Shown here piece after piece: positions 18,122 through 26,772 of a stretch of 33,302 bases of DNA. The DNA is from an uncultured Erysipelotrichaceae bacterium (GTDB taxonomy: Bacteria > Bacillota_I > Bacilli_A > Erysipelotrichales > Erysipelotrichaceae), in contig CAMNFS010000017.1 of assembly GCA_946537255.1 (NCBI GenBank), positions 1 to 33,302 of the forward strand. The letters are read 5' to 3'. A model generated the notes under the pieces. That model saw only the letters and a program-made list of their open reading frames with translations. It ran no database searches and was not told the origin of the DNA. The translations under genes and the position numbers were made by a program. Position 1 is the first letter of the stretch. Each line of letters starts with the position of its first letter.

Positions 18122-18811
18122 TTATTTCCTTTTCAGCCGGTGCAGCTGGGGGCGCAGGGCCATCTCCGTCACAACCGTACCTTCCGGCTGATGGAGAATG
18201 AAGCGGACCGTTTCCGCGATCGTTTCACTGAGCAGGGCGGCTCCGTCCTCATCAGACACAGTGAAATCCGCGTGGCGGTACAGGCCGGTATCCGTCATGT
18301 CCGGAAGCAGAGCGGTGATCTTCATGCCGAATTTCCGGTTCTCCTCAAAGAGCGTACGGGTAAAGTGCAGAAGACCTGCCTTGGCGGCTCCATAGGCAGC
18401 CCCGTGCGGACTGGGCGAAAGGGCGGTGATGCTGGAAATGTTGATGATCGTGCCATGGGTTTCTCTCAGTCTGCGCAGAAAGGAAGCGGTTATGACCATC
18501 GGCACCTCGAGATCCGTCCGGCACATTGCCTGAATCTCGTTTGCACGGATGGTTTCATGAGGGCCATACCAGGCAACCCCGGCATTGTTGATGAGAAGAG
18601 AAAGACGCGAGGCGTCAAAGGTTTTCAGAAAGTTCTGAAGACTGCGATCATCGAGCAGATCAAGAACGATCGGATGAAAATCCGGGCTGTGGGATTCCCC
18701 GTAAAAGCTGCGGCCGATGCCATGGACTTCCCATCCTTCTTCAAGAAGGACGTCCGTGATGCTTTTTCCGATACCGGAGGAAGCTCCGGTCACAAGTGCC
18801 TTCCGTTTCAT
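18122..18811 (-). CDS. Short-chain dehydrogenase/reductase (SDR)
   Basis: 229 residues. ALVTGASSGIGKSI at the N-terminus is the TGxxxGxG NAD(P)-binding motif. LLINNAGVAWYGP is the NNAG motif. The catalytic triad is visible as Ser in NISSITA and Tyr/Lys in AAYGAAKAGL (YxxxK). It therefore looks like an active classical SDR acting on an alcohol or ketone, substrate unknown. Its start overlaps the stop of the SPL-like gene by four bases, so it is translationally coupled and probably the last of the four overlapping genes HAD, nucleosidase-like, SPL-like, SDR. Confidence 0.9.
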   Translation of the reverse strand: MKRKALVTGASSGIGKSITDVLLEEGWEVHGIGRSFYGESHSPDFHPIVLDLLDDRSLQNFLKTFDASRLSLLINNAGVAWYGPHETIRANEIQAMCRTDLEVPMVITASFLRRLRETHGTIINISSITALSPSPHGAAYGAAKAGLLHFTRTLFEENRKFGMKITALLPDMTDTGLYRHADFTVSDEDGAALLSETIAETVRFILHQPEGTVVTEMALRPQLHRLKRK

Positions 18812-19809
18812 TCACAATCCTCCAGAGAGAATATCTTCTCTTTTTCCATATACCGCTCCAGCAGCCCTCTCATCCACTGGTCGATTTCCCTGTGATCTGA
18901 ATAGACGCAGTACCCGTCTTCCGTTTCATATGGATACTGTATGACAGCGGAATATGGGAAGCGTTTCCGCATCCGCCGCTGATACGGTTCACTCTGCCGG
19001 TAGGAACCGATGGATACATCTTTGATCCGGGAAAGATCGATCTCCTGATCAAGGGTGTCAGTCAGCGCTTCATACTCCTTCCGCCATCCGTTCACCTTGA
19101 TCAAAGGATCCAGGCATAACCGCACCGTACAGCCCTCCGCAAGGGCTTTTCTTACTGCCTGAATGCGTTTGGAAAGGGATGGGGTATGGTGCTCAAAGGC
19201 GGTAATCACCGACTGAGGCGAAAGGGTATAGGCGACTATGACGTTGGGACAGTTCTCAAAACAGCGGAAAAGATCCGTGCGGCTGCTTTTGGTACGGATC
19301 TCCAGAACAAGATCCGGGTGTTCCCTGGCAAAAGAAGCCCATGCGTGAATGTGTCCGGTCAGTTCCTCGACCGCAAACAGATCCGTTTCATAGGACAGAG
19401 AGAGAAACAGGCTTCCATCTTTCAGAAGCTCTTCCAGCTCCCTGAAATAATCTTCCTGATTGATGAAAATCATGAGACTGGCCGAGGCATAGATCCCCTT
19501 GAGCCAGCAGTATTCACAGTCAAAAAGACAGCCGACGGCAGTGGTGGTGTAGAAAAACCTGCTCGCATGGAAACTGTGACAGACCGGGGCACCGTGATAA
19601 AACAGGGTTCCGTGCTTGCGGGCAAGAATCAGACTGCGGGATTTCTTCTGCGCCGAAAAGCTCTGACGGGGCCGGTTGAACACATCCGATCCCCGCTGTA
19701 CCAGGATGACATGGGAGTCCGGAAACCGGGCCAGTATTCCTTCAGTCCGCGGGTCAGACCGGATTTCGGATTCCACATAGATATGAGAAAAATTAGCCGA
19801 TGAGTTCAT
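18808..19809 (-). CDS. SPL-like radical SAM protein (spore photoproduct lyase family)
   Basis: 333 residues. AVGCLFDCEYCWLKG gives the radical SAM cysteines at 94, 98 and 101 with CxxxCxxC spacing. The overall pattern follows spore photoproduct lyase: FHASRFFYTTTAVGC before the cluster, LEIRTKSS and VAYTLSPQSVITAFEHHTPSLSKRIQAV after it, then LCLDPL. In Bacillus subtilis SplB, Cys141 donates hydrogen to the repaired thymine. By recalled alignment, the matching spot here is Tyr140 (SLSYETDLFAVEEL), and the Tyr just after the cluster is Trp102. So radical SAM chemistry is very likely, while canonical spore-photoproduct repair is doubtful. It overlaps the upstream nucleosidase-like gene by 17 bases and the SDR gene by four. 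Confidence 0.85.
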   Translation of the reverse strand: MNSSANFSHIYVESEIRSDPRTEGILARFPDSHVILVQRGSDVFNRPRQSFSAQKKSRSLILARKHGTLFYHGAPVCHSFHASRFFYTTTAVGCLFDCEYCWLKGIYASASLMIFINQEDYFRELEELLKDGSLFLSLSYETDLFAVEELTGHIHAWASFAREHPDLVLEIRTKSSRTDLFRCFENCPNVIVAYTLSPQSVITAFEHHTPSLSKRIQAVRKALAEGCTVRLCLDPLIKVNGWRKEYEALTDTLDQEIDLSRIKDVSIGSYRQSEPYQRRMRKRFPYSAVIQYPYETEDGYCVYSDHREIDQWMRGLLERYMEKEKIFSLEDCE

Positions 19810-20605
19810 GGCGGATTTCCTCCAGTCGCTTTTTGCCTTCGCTGCGGTTTTCTGCCGGCAGAAGCCCTTGCTTTATTTTCTGCTGAATCACAGCCTTCCA
19901 GTCAGTTCCGGCAAGCGTGCAGTACAGAAGAAGCTGATGAATCTGCCGGCGCATGGTAAGACTTGCCTGAAACAGATCCGCGGTTTCCTCTTCGTTTTCG
20001 ATGAGCACTTCTTCTTCCTTTGCACACTGACGGCGCATCGCTTCGATTTCCGCTTCAAGACTGGGAATCAGTTCTTTCATAAGGCCGGATACCTCCTGGG
20101 GTGTAACGAGTGTATCGCCCGTGTCACTGACCGTTTTCAGAAAGCGCATCTGATGGGGAGAAAGAAAGAGTGAGCCGGCCTCAAAAAGAGCGGCGCCTTC
20201 CATGTCATAAAGTCCATGGTCAGCCACAGAGCTTTCCCTGTTCCATACCCGGCTGCCGGTAAAAAGCGTTTCCTCCCTTTTCAGAGATGTAAAAATGATA
20301 TCCGGATAGAAGGCTCTGCCGCTGTTTTGATCAATGAGCTGATGAATCAGAACGATCGATCCCTTCTTCTGATGCGAAAGGCCCGCACAGATCCCGGCCG
20401 AAATCAGAAAGTCATCCGCATGCCGCGGGTTTTTTCCAAGCACCGCTCCGCCCACCGATGCGGCCGCGATCGGTCCGGTGCCGGTGACCGTGAGCGTGAT
20501 TTCCCCGTTTTCAAACTGCTGGATCGGCCCCTCCTTCCTCTTCAGATGCCAGTGTTCAATCAGCGGCTTTGCCTCGGCATACAGGGCGGTAAACAGAAAG
20601 ATCAT
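19793..20605 (-). CDS. Nucleoside phosphorylase/nucleosidase-superfamily protein
   Basis: 270 residues. IFLFTALYAEAKPLIEHW at the N-terminus, TVTGTGPIAAA, SAGICAGL, YDMEGAALFEAG and VSDTGD are the hallmarks of the PNP_UDP_1 fold, seen in MTA/SAH nucleosidase and purine phosphorylases. The Glu of DMEGA and the Asp of SDTGD match the ribose- and base-binding catalytic residues. About 90 extra helical residues follow the usual end of the domain. It probably cleaves a nucleoside or modified nucleoside. Its coupling to an SPL-like radical SAM gene suggests a nucleic-acid or SAM by-product as the substrate (inference; 5'-deoxyadenosine is one candidate). It overlaps the HAD gene by four bases. Confidence 0.8.
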   Translation of the reverse strand: MIFLFTALYAEAKPLIEHWHLKRKEGPIQQFENGEITLTVTGTGPIAAASVGGAVLGKNPRHADDFLISAGICAGLSHQKKGSIVLIHQLIDQNSGRAFYPDIIFTSLKREETLFTGSRVWNRESSVADHGLYDMEGAALFEAGSLFLSPHQMRFLKTVSDTGDTLVTPQEVSGLMKELIPSLEAEIEAMRRQCAKEEEVLIENEEETADLFQASLTMRRQIHQLLLYCTLAGTDWKAVIQQKIKQGLLPAENRSEGKKRLEEIRHELIG

Positions 20606-21315
20606 CGGAACCCGTCCGGAAGCAGATTCAGAATGCCTCCGGGGCTCTTGATGCAGGGGTAGCGGTCATCCCTGACATCCGGATGTTCCGCGATGGAGCG
20701 CACGCCATGAATACCATAGGCACCCGCGGCGTCAAGACTCATGGTGAGATCATCCACATAGACAATTTCCTGAGGAGAAAGGGCCATCTTTGCGATCGCG
20801 TCTTCATACATCTTCGGATCCGGCTTCATGACGCCAAGTTCAAAGCTCAGGGTCATGCAGTCATAGAAGGGGGTGTTTCCAACCAGCTTCTGCTGGGGAA
20901 CCGTGCTTGGCCAGGTGTCGGACAGCACCCCGATCCGATATCCCTGTTCCTTCAGTGTTTTCAGAGTGGAAAGGGTGTCGGGAAACTGAATGTAGTTGTC
21001 AAAGTTCCAGGTATGGTCCCGCGCGATTTCCGCAATGGCTTCCCCGGACAGTCCAAGGTTCAGATCGCTGTTCAGGGTTGTGTAGTACCCGATGAACTTT
21101 TCATTTTCTTCTTCCAGCGTACGCGTGTAATGGTGCGCGGAAAGGGGAGCGTGGGCGTGTGCCATGGCGGCCTGGCGTTTTTCCTTTTCAATGGAAAGAA
21201 ACGCTTCTTTTCCGACAAAGTCATAAAAACGGTTGGTGATGGTCCAGTCTCCGCTGGCAGGGTATTCCAGCGTCCATCCAAGATCAAACAGGATTCCTTT
21301 TATCTTCTTTTCCAT
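20602..21315 (-). CDS. HAD-family hydrolase
   Basis: 237 residues. Motif I reads ILFDLGWTLEYP: the nucleophile Asp is present, but the second Asp of the usual DxD is Gly, a variant seen in some HAD subfamilies. Motif II is VLSDTW, motif III Lys in GVMKPDP, and motif IV VYVDDL. A helical cap is inserted after motif I. It is a probable phosphatase of a small phosphorylated metabolite. It is the first of four overlapping minus-strand genes. No ribosome site precedes ATG 21315. Instead, an extended -10 (TGA-TACACT on the minus strand, 21325-21333) lies nine bases upstream, so the transcript may be leaderless. Confidence 0.85.
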   Translation of the reverse strand: MEKKIKGILFDLGWTLEYPASGDWTITNRFYDFVGKEAFLSIEKEKRQAAMAHAHAPLSAHHYTRTLEEENEKFIGYYTTLNSDLNLGLSGEAIAEIARDHTWNFDNYIQFPDTLSTLKTLKEQGYRIGVLSDTWPSTVPQQKLVGNTPFYDCMTLSFELGVMKPDPKMYEDAIAKMALSPQEIVYVDDLTMSLDAAGAYGIHGVRSIAEHPDVRDDRYPCIKSPGGILNLLPDGFR

Positions 21316-21353: not shown

Positions 21354-22217
21354 ATGGCAAAACGAAAAGGGAACCCGAAACGAAAGATGAATACCGGCCG
21401 GATGATTGTTCTGATGAGTCTTGGCCTGGTCGCGATGATGATAGTGATTCTGGGGTTCCTTTTTATTGTACAGTCCATTGTTTCTCCGTCCGCCCCGCAG
21501 GAAACGCCGATCGCGGAAACCCCGACGCCGGATCCGGTCTATCCAAATGACTATGACTGGCAGTATCTGAAGAAGGAAAACGACCGCTTTGTCTATGAGG
21601 ACAGCAAATATACCTCACGTACCGGGATTGATGTCTCCTACAGCCAGGGGGATATTGACTGGGACAGAGTCAGAGCCGACGGCATTGACTTCGCGATCAT
21701 ACGGGCCGGCTACCGGGGCTATGAAACCGGCGAGCTCCATGAGGACGCCTATTTCAGATACAATATTGAAAACGCCGTCCGGGTCGGGATGGATGTCGGT
21801 GTCTATTTCTTTTCCCAGGCGATTTCCGCTGAGGAAGCGAAGGAAGAAGCGGAGTTTGTGCTCGATCTCATCAAGGGCTATCCGGTGCTTTCCGTTGCCT
21901 TTGATCTTGAGGAGGCAGACAAGGAAGGCCGGATTGCGGACAACAGCCGGGAGCTCAATACCGCCGGCGCCATATCCTTTTCCAAAACCATAAAGGCCGC
22001 CGGCTATACGCCGCTTGTCTATGGAAGCGCGAGCTGGATGACCTACGATATCAGAATGTGGGAGCTGCAGGACATGGTGGAGTTCTGGATGGCCGCCTAT
22101 GGCTGGGAGTACCCGAAGTTTCCGTATGTCTTCTCCATCTGGCAGTATTCCAGCACCGGCCATGTGGATGGAATCAGTACGATTGTCGACATGAATCTTC
22201 AGATCATGGAGAAATAG
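21354..22217 (+). CDS. GH25-family muramidase (lysozyme), membrane-anchored
   Basis: 287 residues. A basic N-terminus (KRKGNPKRK) and one membrane helix (~17-43) anchor the protein with its C-terminus outside. A Pro/Thr-rich linker follows (~45-65). The GH25 domain runs from ~88 to the end: GIDVSYSQGDIDW (Asp93), FAIIRAGYRGY, GVYFFSQA, AFDLEE with Asp184/Glu186 as the DxE catalytic pair, PLVYGS, and SIWQYSSTG near the end. It should cut muramic acid linkages in peptidoglycan during wall remodelling. ATG 21354 follows TATAAT by only six bases with no ribosome site. It is convergent with the YigZ-like gene, with two bases between the stops. Confidence 0.93.
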   Translation: MAKRKGNPKRKMNTGRMIVLMSLGLVAMMIVILGFLFIVQSIVSPSAPQETPIAETPTPDPVYPNDYDWQYLKKENDRFVYEDSKYTSRTGIDVSYSQGDIDWDRVRADGIDFAIIRAGYRGYETGELHEDAYFRYNIENAVRVGMDVGVYFFSQAISAEEAKEEAEFVLDLIKGYPVLSVAFDLEEADKEGRIADNSRELNTAGAISFSKTIKAAGYTPLVYGSASWMTYDIRMWELQDMVEFWMAAYGWEYPKFPYVFSIWQYSSTGHVDGISTIVDMNLQIMEK

Positions 22218-22825: not shown

Positions 22826-22925
22826 ACAGAGATTGTACCGCACCTGGAGTGGGAAACGGCCTGTCTGAAGTCATTCTTTTGCGGAACACCTCCAATTTTT
22901 TGAGGGCGTGCAAGCGTTTTCAAAT

Positions 22926-22931
22926 TATAAT
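22926..22931 (+). promoter_or_regulatory. -10 box directly before the first GGDEF/EAL gene
   Basis: TATAAT ends nine bases before ATG 22941. A start site about seven bases after it would leave a leader of only about two bases. No Shine-Dalgarno sequence is visible. Confidence 0.5.
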
Positions 22932-22940
22932 AGTCCATGT

Positions 22941-24872
22941 ATGAAGTACAACGTTTACTTCGATCTTTCGGCACTGCTTGTGACAGCGGTGATACTGATT
23001 TCCTCATGGGTGTCCGAATGGATTCCGACCAATAAGAACCGGTTCTACAAATATCTGGTCGGATGTGTTTTTCTTACTGCCGGCATGGATATCATTTCCT
23101 GCCTGATGGAAATGTATCCGCAGCCGTTTGGCTGGTGGGTCCCGCTGCGGAAGGTGATTACCTCCATGTATTTCTGTTTTCATACTGCCACCGGGATGTG
23201 TTATTTCCTCTTTACCCTGGCGCTGGCCAATGTTTCTCCATACAATCTGCGCAGCCGGATGGTTGTGACCCTGCCGCTGAACCTGTGTTTTATCATGACC
23301 GTTCTGAATCTGTTCTTCCCGCTTTATTTCTACTATGACAATGCGGGCGTCTATCATCGCGGTCCTCTGATGCCCCTGCAGTATGCCATCGGTTTCTACT
23401 ATGCTCTGATGGTTTTCTACAGTCTGTACCGCTACCGCCGCTCCATTCCATCTCATCATCGCAGAATCATCTACGGGTTTCTTGTGCTGGTCCTTGTCGG
23501 CATTCTGATTCCGACCTTTCTGCCGGCGTTTCTGGTCGGTGAGTTTCTGAATTCGGTGGCTCTGATTCTGATCTATGTTCTGATAGAGACAGCGGATGAA
23601 ATCAAGGATCAGCGGTTCGGCATTCTCACCCGACAGGCCTATCTGCGCCAGGCGGATCTCAATATTTCCAGCGAAGTCGGCTTCCGCTCGATCTTCGTGC
23701 ATGTGTCAGACATGCATGAAGTGATGAACGGCGACGGGGATCAGATCCAGGCAGAACTCATGGAGAAGATCATTGAATATCTGATGCGCTTTAAAAACGA
23801 GGCATGGATCTGCCTCTGGTCCAATGACTGTCTGGTTCTGGATCTGCGCGGGGTAAGCGAAGCCCGTACCGAGGAAATCATGAATACGATTGTGGAACGC
23901 TTCCGTGATCCCTGGACGAGCCGTGATTTCATTCAGACCATCGGGGTATGTACCTGGCTGGTACGATGCCCGGAGGATGTGAAAACGACCGGTGAACTGG
24001 CGATGAAGATCGCTCTGCTCAAAACCATCGGCATTTCCAGATACCGCGGGATTCTGAAACTCGAGGATGTGGATTTTGAAGAACTCGGCTATGAGAACCG
24101 GATGCTGAGGGAACTGCATACCGCTCTTGAGAAGCAGACCGCGGAAGTGCGGTATGAGCCGGTGAAGGAAATCCGTACCGGCAGGATCATATCCGCCCGC
24201 GCCGGGATTTTCACCCCGGATGGAAACGGCCGCATGATCAGTGTCACGTCCTTTCTGAATCCGTCTGATACAAGGCCGCTGTACTCCAAACTGGATGGCT
24301 ATGTTCTGGATGATGCCGCAAGGAATCTCAGGCTTCTGACAAAGGATACCGGCCTCAACAGCGTCTCGGTGCGGCTTTCCTTCAGTGAGATCACCAAGCT
24401 TCGCTTTGAGTCAGGACTGATGCGGCGCTGTGACCGGTACAACGCCGATTTCCATAAGATCATGCTGAGAGTGTCCGGCGGCACCTACGCCCGGGTTTCC
24501 GAAGACCGCATGAAGGCAATCAGCCGTCTCAGGGATGATGGATGGCAGATTGCGGTCGATGATTTCGGCTATGGGCAGGCATTTCTGAGCCGGATTGCCG
24601 ACTCGGATATTTCCCGGGTGATCGTACACCAGGATGTATGCCGCTCGATTCTGCGGGAGACATCCGGCCAGAAGCTCGGCAAGGGACTGATTGATGCGAT
24701 GCATGCCGTCGGAAAGACCGTTTCCCTGACCGGTATCATCACCCAGGAGGACGCCAACGCGGCCGAAGAGCTCGGAGCGGACTTTATCCTGGGTCCGTTT
24801 GTGGGGGAACCGATGAAAGCGGAGAGGTTTGCGGAATGGGTGAAAGAGAGGGATGAGTATGCAGTACAGTGA
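22941..24872 (+). CDS. Membrane protein with degenerate GGDEF and degenerate EAL domains
   Basis: 643 residues. The first ~220 residues hold about seven hydrophobic segments, like 7TM/histidine-kinase-type sensor regions. A GGDEF-like domain follows (~225-385), but the signature site reads WSNDC. The EAL-like domain (~390-640) has lost nearly all catalytic residues: SARAG for EAL, RVSGG for EITE, DDFGYG for DDFGTG, LTGIIT for AEGVET, LGPFVG for QGYYFS. It is therefore probably a non-enzymatic sensor or c-di-GMP/protein-binding partner. The next gene, with an intact EAL site, overlaps its end. ATG 22941 is preferred over in-frame GTG 22908, since a TATAAT box sits between them. Confidence 0.87.
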   Translation: MKYNVYFDLSALLVTAVILISSWVSEWIPTNKNRFYKYLVGCVFLTAGMDIISCLMEMYPQPFGWWVPLRKVITSMYFCFHTATGMCYFLFTLALANVSPYNLRSRMVVTLPLNLCFIMTVLNLFFPLYFYYDNAGVYHRGPLMPLQYAIGFYYALMVFYSLYRYRRSIPSHHRRIIYGFLVLVLVGILIPTFLPAFLVGEFLNSVALILIYVLIETADEIKDQRFGILTRQAYLRQADLNISSEVGFRSIFVHVSDMHEVMNGDGDQIQAELMEKIIEYLMRFKNEAWICLWSNDCLVLDLRGVSEARTEEIMNTIVERFRDPWTSRDFIQTIGVCTWLVRCPEDVKTTGELAMKIALLKTIGISRYRGILKLEDVDFEELGYENRMLRELHTALEKQTAEVRYEPVKEIRTGRIISARAGIFTPDGNGRMISVTSFLNPSDTRPLYSKLDGYVLDDAARNLRLLTKDTGLNSVSVRLSFSEITKLRFESGLMRRCDRYNADFHKIMLRVSGGTYARVSEDRMKAISRLRDDGWQIAVDDFGYGQAFLSRIADSDISRVIVHQDVCRSILRETSGQKLGKGLIDAMHAVGKTVSLTGIITQEDANAAEELGADFILGPFVGEPMKAERFAEWVKERDEYAVQ

Positions 24873-26772
24873 TCTCTGGCTCTCCATTACCGGTATGGTT
24901 TTCAATCTTCTGCCGTTCTGGATTTTTCTGTATCAGGGCACCGCGAACTTCCGTCAGGTCCGGCGGTTTCTGAGTCTGAACGCTTCGGTGCTGCTGATCA
25001 ATCTGATCGCTGTGATCTATTCCCGGATCATTCCGATCACGGAACAAAATGCCTGGGCTGCGCTGCTTGTTTCTACCGCCTCTTCCCTTGCGGTCACGGC
25101 GGTTCCGTATTTTGTCTATGCCTATATCTACAGTCTTTTCTACTATGATGACAGCGGCCATACCTATTCCATAAAGGCGGTTGTCGGCCTTGCTGTTTCA
25201 CTGGCCGCGGTTATTCTGTTCGGGCCGGAAATCGTTCTGGAACATCGGTCCCTGGTGCTGAATGGAATGAAGGGAACCCTGCTTCTGATCATTCCGGCGC
25301 TGTATTTTCTTTCGATCAGCGTCGCGGAGGGAATCCGCCATGAAAGTTCTCTGAACCGAAGTCACATCCGGGCTTTGCGGATCATGCTGTTTCTGTGCGT
25401 GGTTTCGGTTGTGGTATTCAAAATACTGCGGAAGGTTTCCGTCTATGGATTTCTGCTCACGCTGGTTCCGATCCTTGCCCAGTATACGATGCAGGGAAAG
25501 GGCACGCTCATTGATCCGGTAACCGGTCTGCGCTCCCGCAACGCGTGGCATATCAGTATGACAACCCGCATGCAGGGAAAGAAGGCTTTCCGGGTCATTC
25601 TGATTCATATACCGGATCTTTCCGCGATTGCCGCCTCGCTTGATGAGACCAATGCCAGATCCCTGATGGGACGGGTGGCGGAAATCCTGACCGGCATTGC
25701 CAAAAACTGTCCGGTGTTCCGGATCGGGGATGACTGCTTCGCGATTCTGGAAAATGAAGTCGATGAGCGGGCAGCCAATGAGATGGAGATTGATCTTGCC
25801 TCGCGCTTCCGCTCGCCGCTTTACGCAGGCGGAGAACAGAAGCGGATTCATGTTCTCGCCAGTACGATCAGCTATCCGGACGATGTCAGGAATATGGAGG
25901 ATCTGGATATCCTGACCGAGATGCTCGATGACCATGCGAGTAAGGTCCGCGAGAGTGAAGAAGTGATGATCCATCTGGATCTTGAAAAGGAAAAAGAGAT
26001 GCGCTCAGCGGTTCACGCGGTCAGCTCCGCGCTTCTCAGCGGGCGGCTTGAGGTGTTCTATCAGCCGATCATCAATCTGAACAACGGCAGATTTGAGTCC
26101 GCGGAGGCTCTGATCCGGATGAAGGATGAAAAGGGCAGCTATGTCAGCCCTGGCAGCTTCATACCGGCAGCCGAGCGCAGCGGCATTATTGTCCGGATCG
26201 GCAGGTTTGTTCTCGATGAGGTATGCCGGCTGATGGAGGAAGAACATCTCAGAGATCTGGGTGTTCATTATGTTGAAGTCAATCTGTCCGTGGAGGAATC
26301 CATTCAGGAAAACATCACGGATGTGATGCGCCGGATCATGGAAACGCATCATACCGATCCGTCCGCCCTGAATATCGAGGTGACGGAAACCGCCAATGAA
26401 ACAGCGAGTGAGCTGATGTTCCGGAATATTGAAATGATTCACAATGATCTGGGTCTGGAGCTTTCTCTGGATGATTTCGGTACCGGCTATTCGAATCTGT
26501 CCCGGATGCTTTCCATGCCCGTCAGTATCATCAAGTTTGACCGTTCCCTGCTTCTCAAGGCGTTTGAGACAGAAAAGGGCCGCATCATGTTCGAGCGGCT
26601 CGCCGGGATGGTTCACGCCGTGGGCAGAAGAATAGTGTGTGAGGGCGTGGAAACCGCAGAACAGGCGGAGTTTGTAAAGGCCAACCGGATTGAATACATA
26701 CAGGGGTTCTATTATGCCCGGCCGATGCCCGCGGCTTCCTATGTGGAATTTCTCAAGGAACATGCCGCGTGA
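24859..26772 (+). CDS. Membrane GGDEF-EAL protein, probable c-di-GMP phosphodiesterase
   Basis: 637 residues. About seven membrane segments occupy residues 1-~210. A GGDEF domain (~215-380) is degenerate (RIGDDCF) and probably not a cyclase, but may still bind GTP. The EAL domain (~385-635) is intact: YQPI, AEALIRM, VNLSVEE, EVTETA, LDDFGTGYSNL, IKFDRS, CEGVETAEQ and IQGFYYARPM. It should hydrolyse cyclic-di-GMP. An in-frame ATG lies at 24853, but GAGAGGG ends at 24852, so ATG 24859 has better spacing. Its start overlaps the preceding gene by 14 bases, indicating translational coupling of the apparently dead sensor and the active enzyme. Confidence 0.9.
   Translation: MQYSDLWLSITGMVFNLLPFWIFLYQGTANFRQVRRFLSLNASVLLINLIAVIYSRIIPITEQNAWAALLVSTASSLAVTAVPYFVYAYIYSLFYYDDSGHTYSIKAVVGLAVSLAAVILFGPEIVLEHRSLVLNGMKGTLLLIIPALYFLSISVAEGIRHESSLNRSHIRALRIMLFLCVVSVVVFKILRKVSVYGFLLTLVPILAQYTMQGKGTLIDPVTGLRSRNAWHISMTTRMQGKKAFRVILIHIPDLSAIAASLDETNARSLMGRVAEILTGIAKNCPVFRIGDDCFAILENEVDERAANEMEIDLASRFRSPLYAGGEQKRIHVLASTISYPDDVRNMEDLDILTEMLDDHASKVRESEEVMIHLDLEKEKEMRSAVHAVSSALLSGRLEVFYQPIINLNNGRFESAEALIRMKDEKGSYVSPGSFIPAAERSGIIVRIGRFVLDEVCRLMEEEHLRDLGVHYVEVNLSVEESIQENITDVMRRIMETHHTDPSALNIEVTETANETASELMFRNIEMIHNDLGLELSLDDFGTGYSNLSRMLSMPVSIIKFDRSLLLKAFETEKGRIMFERLAGMVHAVGRRIVCEGVETAEQAEFVKANRIEYIQGFYYARPMPAASYVEFLKEHAA

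Follow-up and report, generated by a model that had tools for sequence, protein, structure and literature searches.

The genes for an MTAN-superfamily nucleosidase (NUC), an SPL-superfamily radical SAM protein (SPL), and a short-chain dehydrogenase/reductase (SDR) form a conserved unit of three genes, and the HAD-family hydrolase gene (HAD) that adjoins them in the genome studied lies outside this unit. Judged by its sequence, SPL is a subfamily of its own, distinct from SplB, and both the subfamily and the operon appear to be new. The explanation that we favor, and to which we give about an even chance of being right, is that SPL works with a docked NUC that would clear 5'-deoxyadenosine and with SDR that would reduce the SPL product. 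No paper on the NUC-SPL-SDR gene set was found in the open-access literature, which was the scope of the search.

Gene organization of the locus

The window, i.e., the whole stretch of 33,302 nucleotides that was analyzed, corresponds to contig C17 in an assembly of 2.44 Mb. Among named relatives, the nearest are Solobacterium-like MAGs from rumen and gut. The features of interest are:

18122–18811, minus strand: SDR, short-chain dehydrogenase/reductase, 229 aa (PF00106, 114 bits)
18808–19809, minus strand: SPL, SPL-superfamily radical SAM protein, 333 aa (PF20903, 60.2 bits vs. a cut-off of 27)
19793–20605, minus strand: NUC, MTAN-superfamily nucleosidase, 270 aa (nucleosidase ~1–168, helical C-terminal domain ~197–270)
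20602–21315, minus strand: HAD-family hydrolase, 237 aa (PF00702 in Pfam), neighbor of the conserved module and not in it
21354–22217, plus strand: GH25 lysozyme-like protein, divergent to HAD and 38 bp away from it, the ancestral context of HAD

The four minus-strand ORFs are present as given in a preliminary description of this DNA, with overlaps of 4, 17, and 4 bases. That description regarded the four genes as very probably expressed together and set the co-occurrence of their families in other genomes as a test. NUC, SPL, and SDR were found to co-occur, with gene fusions as extra support, but HAD did not join them. Likewise, the overlap between NUC and SPL recurs in relatives, whereas that between HAD and NUC was seen in this genome alone.

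A search for riboswitches, with the gathering threshold as the limit, found none in the window and none close to the operon at ten related loci. Further along the window (22908–26772), GH25 and UPF0029 are followed by two overlapping membrane-anchored genes, which are GGDEF/EAL-like by eye and are kept in several relatives.

Distribution and limits of the conserved unit

Within the genus, the SPL gene was found in 13 of 36 genomes, and NUC, SPL, and SDR follow in the same order in all 13, nearly always with overlaps; the one between NUC and SPL is present in every case. NUC was found in the same 13 genomes and in one more, where it lies 48 bases from the contig end. When 84,980 species genomes were scanned, 274 SPL relatives were found, the best 80 of which were taken as wider loci and belong to Lachnospiraceae, other Clostridia, and Erysipelotrichales. 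Among these best 80 of 274, NUC adjoins SPL in 78, SDR lies nearby on the same strand in ~74, and NUC and SPL overlap in most, usually by 26 or 29 bp. Because this overlap recurs in the genus and in the wider loci, the coupling is not a matter of chance. Among the sampled members of the GTDB phylum to which the window belongs, this SPL type was found in the genus alone.

The Lachnospiraceae were sampled with 299 genomes. SPL of the module type (E below 1e-100) was present in 48 of these, and NUC accompanied it in 44 of the 48, adjacent every time. The one match to the NUC profile in an SPL-free Lachnospiraceae genome (G766, E 3e-9) resembles a generic nucleosidase. A weaker SPL match (E ~1e-20), which is probably SplB, was detected in 20 Lachnospiraceae genomes. 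Four genomes (G512, G615, G632, and G753) hold both types. The module had no match in IMG/VR that would indicate a viral home. Two unannotated contigs from human feces that were deposited as phage (L158 and L159) contain the module; their DNA may be of bacterial origin.

HAD is part of a HAD/GH25/UPF0029 block that is found also in genomes without the module. At 11 loci of the genus, HAD has GH25 as a neighbor but no NUC or SPL within reach, and 7 of those genomes are without any SPL. Where HAD does not overlap NUC in the genus, it lies 34–61 bp or 0.6–1.1 kb off or is absent, and no HAD adjoining NUC was found in the wider loci outside the genus. HAD stays beside GH25 without the module and is therefore a neighbor, not a partner. 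The role in the pathway that the preliminary description had assigned to HAD was rejected because of this association with GH25 and UPF0029 in module-free genomes. Among the immediate neighbors of 56 representative loci, no further recurring partner family was found (maximum 4/91). Two gene families near the operon (13 and 15 loci, in one clostridial group) were dismissed as lineage synteny, with MetRS nearby.

SPL differs from SplB in clade and active site

The predicted SPL model was closest to GtSPL of G. thermodenitrificans (TM 0.83, E ~1e-22), far ahead of other structures. The motif CxxxCxxC (C94, C98, and C101) is invariant in 106/106 SPL sequences, and this cluster, together with K174, E206, and R271, is common to SPL and SplB. 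However, SPL scored only 68.1 bits against the TIGR04070 SplB equivalog and did not reach the cut-off of 400. In the tree, 26 of 26 SPL representatives were set apart from SplB and from TIGR03886 proteins by a 100/99 branch. Moreover, the position of the H-donor Cys of SplB (C141 in B. subtilis, C140 in G. thermodenitrificans) is Tyr or Phe in 106/106 SPL sequences (Y140 in the window). On the score, the separate clade, and the missing Cys, we reject an identity of SPL with SplB. They agree with the earlier view of the radical SAM protein as something other than an ordinary spore photoproduct lyase, and the phylogeny against true SplB, a check asked for at that stage, places SPL on its own side of the branch. 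The window genome contains no SplB and no other PF20903 match. Six genomes of the genus that have the module were searched for Spo0A_C and SASP, and neither was found.

In addition to the cluster, Cys77, E170, R172, K174, R230, D234, and R271 are invariant in 106/106 SPL sequences. At the positions of E170, R172, R230, and D234, the SplB set has Arg, Val/Ile, Gly, and Ala. The alternation along the strands suggests that these four residues face inward, so the barrel interior of SPL appears to be recharged. The equivalent of B. subtilis Y99 is lost in 38/106 sequences (replaced by F or, as in the window, by W), and a short segment near the C-terminus that is conserved in SplB is absent from SPL. 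Cys77 lies 17 residues before the cluster, whereas the Cys of the SplB set lies 14 before it; Cys77 is therefore not at the C74-type position, although it could serve similarly.

NUC, its degeneration, and gene fusions

NUC misses every Pfam cut-off and is matched only weakly by models of futalosine hydrolase and of MTA/SAH nucleosidase. The score against TIGR03664 (futalosine hydrolase) was 33.8 bits, with a cut-off of 124.7. Futalosine hydrolase was the best curated model for 56 of 62 members, and one member weakly matches HpnG. The MTA/SAH nucleosidase model gave no match to the window NUC at E 0.01 and weak matches to other members. The AlphaFold model of NUC has a pLDDT of 93.8, and its top 50 PDB neighbors are all MTAN or futalosine hydrolase. 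The catalytic Glu/Glu/Asp set, E11, E136, and D161, which we take to be E12, E174, and D197 of E. coli MTAN, is intact in 87/91 NUC sequences.

Catalytic residues are lost or replaced in L063, L098, L100, and L158, which keep the YPD segment, the C-terminal domain, and the operon. Mainly the C-terminal domain is left in four Lachnospiraceae (G492, G668, G505, and G604, the last with an 84-aa ORF), and a 201-aa remnant with the YPD motif, judged by eye, is left in G556. Altogether, the nucleosidase part is degenerate or missing in ~eleven loci, and the YPD segment and the C-terminal domain are mostly kept, beside SPL or fused with it. Mapped on the SPL tree, degeneration requires ~7 changes (6–7 in bootstraps), just 2 of which are forced by well-supported branches. 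The dN/dS between L098 and L100 is ~0.29, which indicates that their degenerate NUC is still under purifying selection. Because the C-terminal domain outlasts the nucleosidase, it is probably this domain that SPL physically requires, and the hydrolase would be replaceable. This would be expected of 5'-deoxyadenosine removal, since a housekeeping nucleosidase could take over; the window genome has five other PF01048 genes. In L102 (5004–5990), the variable loop of NUC carries a Cys-rich pentapeptide repeat insertion (CGMND/CKKND). A RiPP link (model NF038108) was triggered by this insertion in a single NUC and was rejected.

NUC and SPL are one in-frame ORF in eight Lachnospiraceae genomes (502–742 aa) and in Fusobacterium vincentii, where the 624-aa ORF is followed by SDR. 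SPL and SDR are one ORF in L037. In L101 and, as judged by eye, also in G737, SPL is joined to no more of NUC than its C-terminal domain. The NUC-SPL and SPL-SDR fusions imply a physical unit. The fusion in L101 (3290–12838) lies amid apparent hydrogenase maturation genes (HypF, HypE, and HypD by eye). The F. vincentii record (L157, NZ_CP084075.1) is labeled "plasmid" and has one annotated feature, but at 2.1 Mb it is chromosome-sized.

SDR contains TGxxxGIG and Ser127-Tyr140-Lys144, as in classical SDRs, and the catalytic residues are invariant in 50 orthologues. Arg34 fits the pattern of an NADPH enzyme.

Proposed function and alternatives

From co-occurrence, fusions, and residue patterns, we infer the following chemistry, complex, and roles for NUC and SDR. 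SPL would cleave SAM, and the resulting 5'-deoxyadenosyl radical would act on a substrate other than the thymine photoproduct. SAM would probably be consumed, with one 5'-deoxyadenosine formed per SPL turnover, because SPL is without the Cys through which SplB returns the radical and so regenerates SAM. In B. subtilis SPL, the replacements C141A and Y99F stopped SAM regeneration, and one SAM was used per turnover (PMC3742179). With the C141 equivalent absent throughout SPL and that of Y99 absent in over a third of the sequences, stoichiometric formation of 5'-deoxyadenosine is a reasonable expectation. This product is an inhibitor of radical SAM enzymes, and MTAN disposes of it (PMC8102628, PMC10986504). 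NUC would dock on SPL via its C-terminal domain and hydrolyze 5'-deoxyadenosine to adenine and 5-deoxyribose on site, relieving product inhibition. SDR would probably reduce the SPL product with NADPH. Clean-up of 5'-deoxyadenosine by the nucleosidase, already suggested in the preliminary description, is thus the best-fitting explanation.

Several points speak against clean-up. The closest curated model for NUC is that of futalosine hydrolase, an enzyme that acts on a radical SAM adduct. Removal of 5'-deoxyadenosine alone leaves SDR unexplained. The invariant Cys77 might be a substitute H donor, in which case SAM would be recycled and little 5'-deoxyadenosine would form. Finally, since a housekeeping nucleosidase suffices for most radical SAM enzymes, there would have to be some special reason for a dedicated one. 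We also entertain, more tentatively, a radical SAM–nucleosidase complex in which NUC would be a fixed subunit, in several lineages a dead docking domain, and SPL would carry out a new reaction with Cys77 as a radical relay.

In one alternative, an unsaturated substrate would receive the 5'-deoxyadenosyl radical from SPL, the resulting adduct would lose its adenine through NUC, and SDR would reduce the opened ribose to a polyol tail. Such an adduct pathway accounts for all three enzymes in order, including SDR, which it explains better than clean-up does, and a radical SAM adenosyl transferase is paired with a PF01048-type enzyme in two known pathways. The futalosine pathway pairs MqnE with MqnB, and the SPL model has MqnE as one of its structural neighbors outside the SPL proteins; the best curated models of NUC and the weak HpnG match point in the same direction. 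The hopanoid pathway pairs HpnH with HpnG (PMC12583986). However, the ~eleven lineages described above keep SPL but have a degenerate nucleosidase or none, with SDR mostly still adjacent. A middle step that the pathway requires should not be open to loss, which counts against an adduct pathway unless another nucleosidase substitutes. NUC also falls far below the futalosine hydrolase cut-off. MqnA and MqnD were not found in the genomes checked, G000 among them, and on these genomes we reject the futalosine/menaquinone pathway as such. We consider an adduct pathway unlikely, although it is the main rival of clean-up.

Repair of a DNA or RNA lesion by an SPL variant with Cys77 as the H donor and with NUC and SDR as helpers is, in our judgment, distinctly improbable. 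It would agree with the SPL fold, with the residues and the cluster common to SplB, and with the use of an upstream Cys as H donor by some SplB enzymes, e.g., C74 of C. acetobutylicum SPL (PMC5368176). Against it stand the different spacing of Cys77, the replacement of pocket residues by invariant charges, the missing segment near the C-terminus, and a genome without Spo0A and SASP. Moreover, four Lachnospiraceae hold this SPL alongside an SplB-like match, and the reductase would have no clear role. The nucleoside-modifying or salvage pathway including HAD that was put forward in the preliminary description draws on the overlap of four genes in this genome. With HAD outside the conserved unit and nothing else linking the module to nucleosides, no positive evidence for a modified-nucleoside pathway was obtained, and we regard it as scarcely credible.

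Comparison with known systems

Cells are thought to depend on a general nucleosidase against inhibition by the radical SAM by-product. If clean-up by the docked NUC is true, removal of this by-product can be built into a radical SAM enzyme via a linked, often fused nucleosidase. The SPL subfamily is widespread in gut and oral anaerobes, and database models class it with SPL despite its different active site. The natural NUC-SPL fusions make the question of the substrate testable.

SPL resembles SplB (TIGR04070, PF20903) in its predicted fold, radical SAM motif, and several barrel residues. It differs in the absence of the H-donor Cys at the SplB position, its own invariant Cys77, the apparently recharged pocket, the missing C-terminal segment, the separate clade, the non-sporulating host, and the nearly constant company of NUC. 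The TIGR03886 SPL family (Proteobacteria, Deinococcus, and Acidobacteria) belongs to the same superfamily, with ~22–27% identity to SPL, but in the tree it lies on the same side as SplB, and no NUC or SDR is annotated in the four neighborhoods examined. A Roseomonas plasmid (L163, 2183–4304) carries two overlapping tandem TIGR03886-type genes from different tree branches.

NUC shares the fold and the catalytic Glu/Glu/Asp with the MTA/SAH nucleosidase (Pfs/MtnN). In contrast to the latter, it is below all curated cut-offs, has a changed YPD loop and an extra C-terminal domain, and is linked to a single radical SAM gene; besides it, the window genome has separate PF01048 genes. The pairs MqnE/MqnB and HpnH/HpnG likewise combine a radical SAM enzyme with a PF01048-type enzyme. 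SPL/NUC differs from them in that SPL is of another radical SAM subfamily, the nucleosidase is dispensable, and the genomes checked have no MqnA/D.
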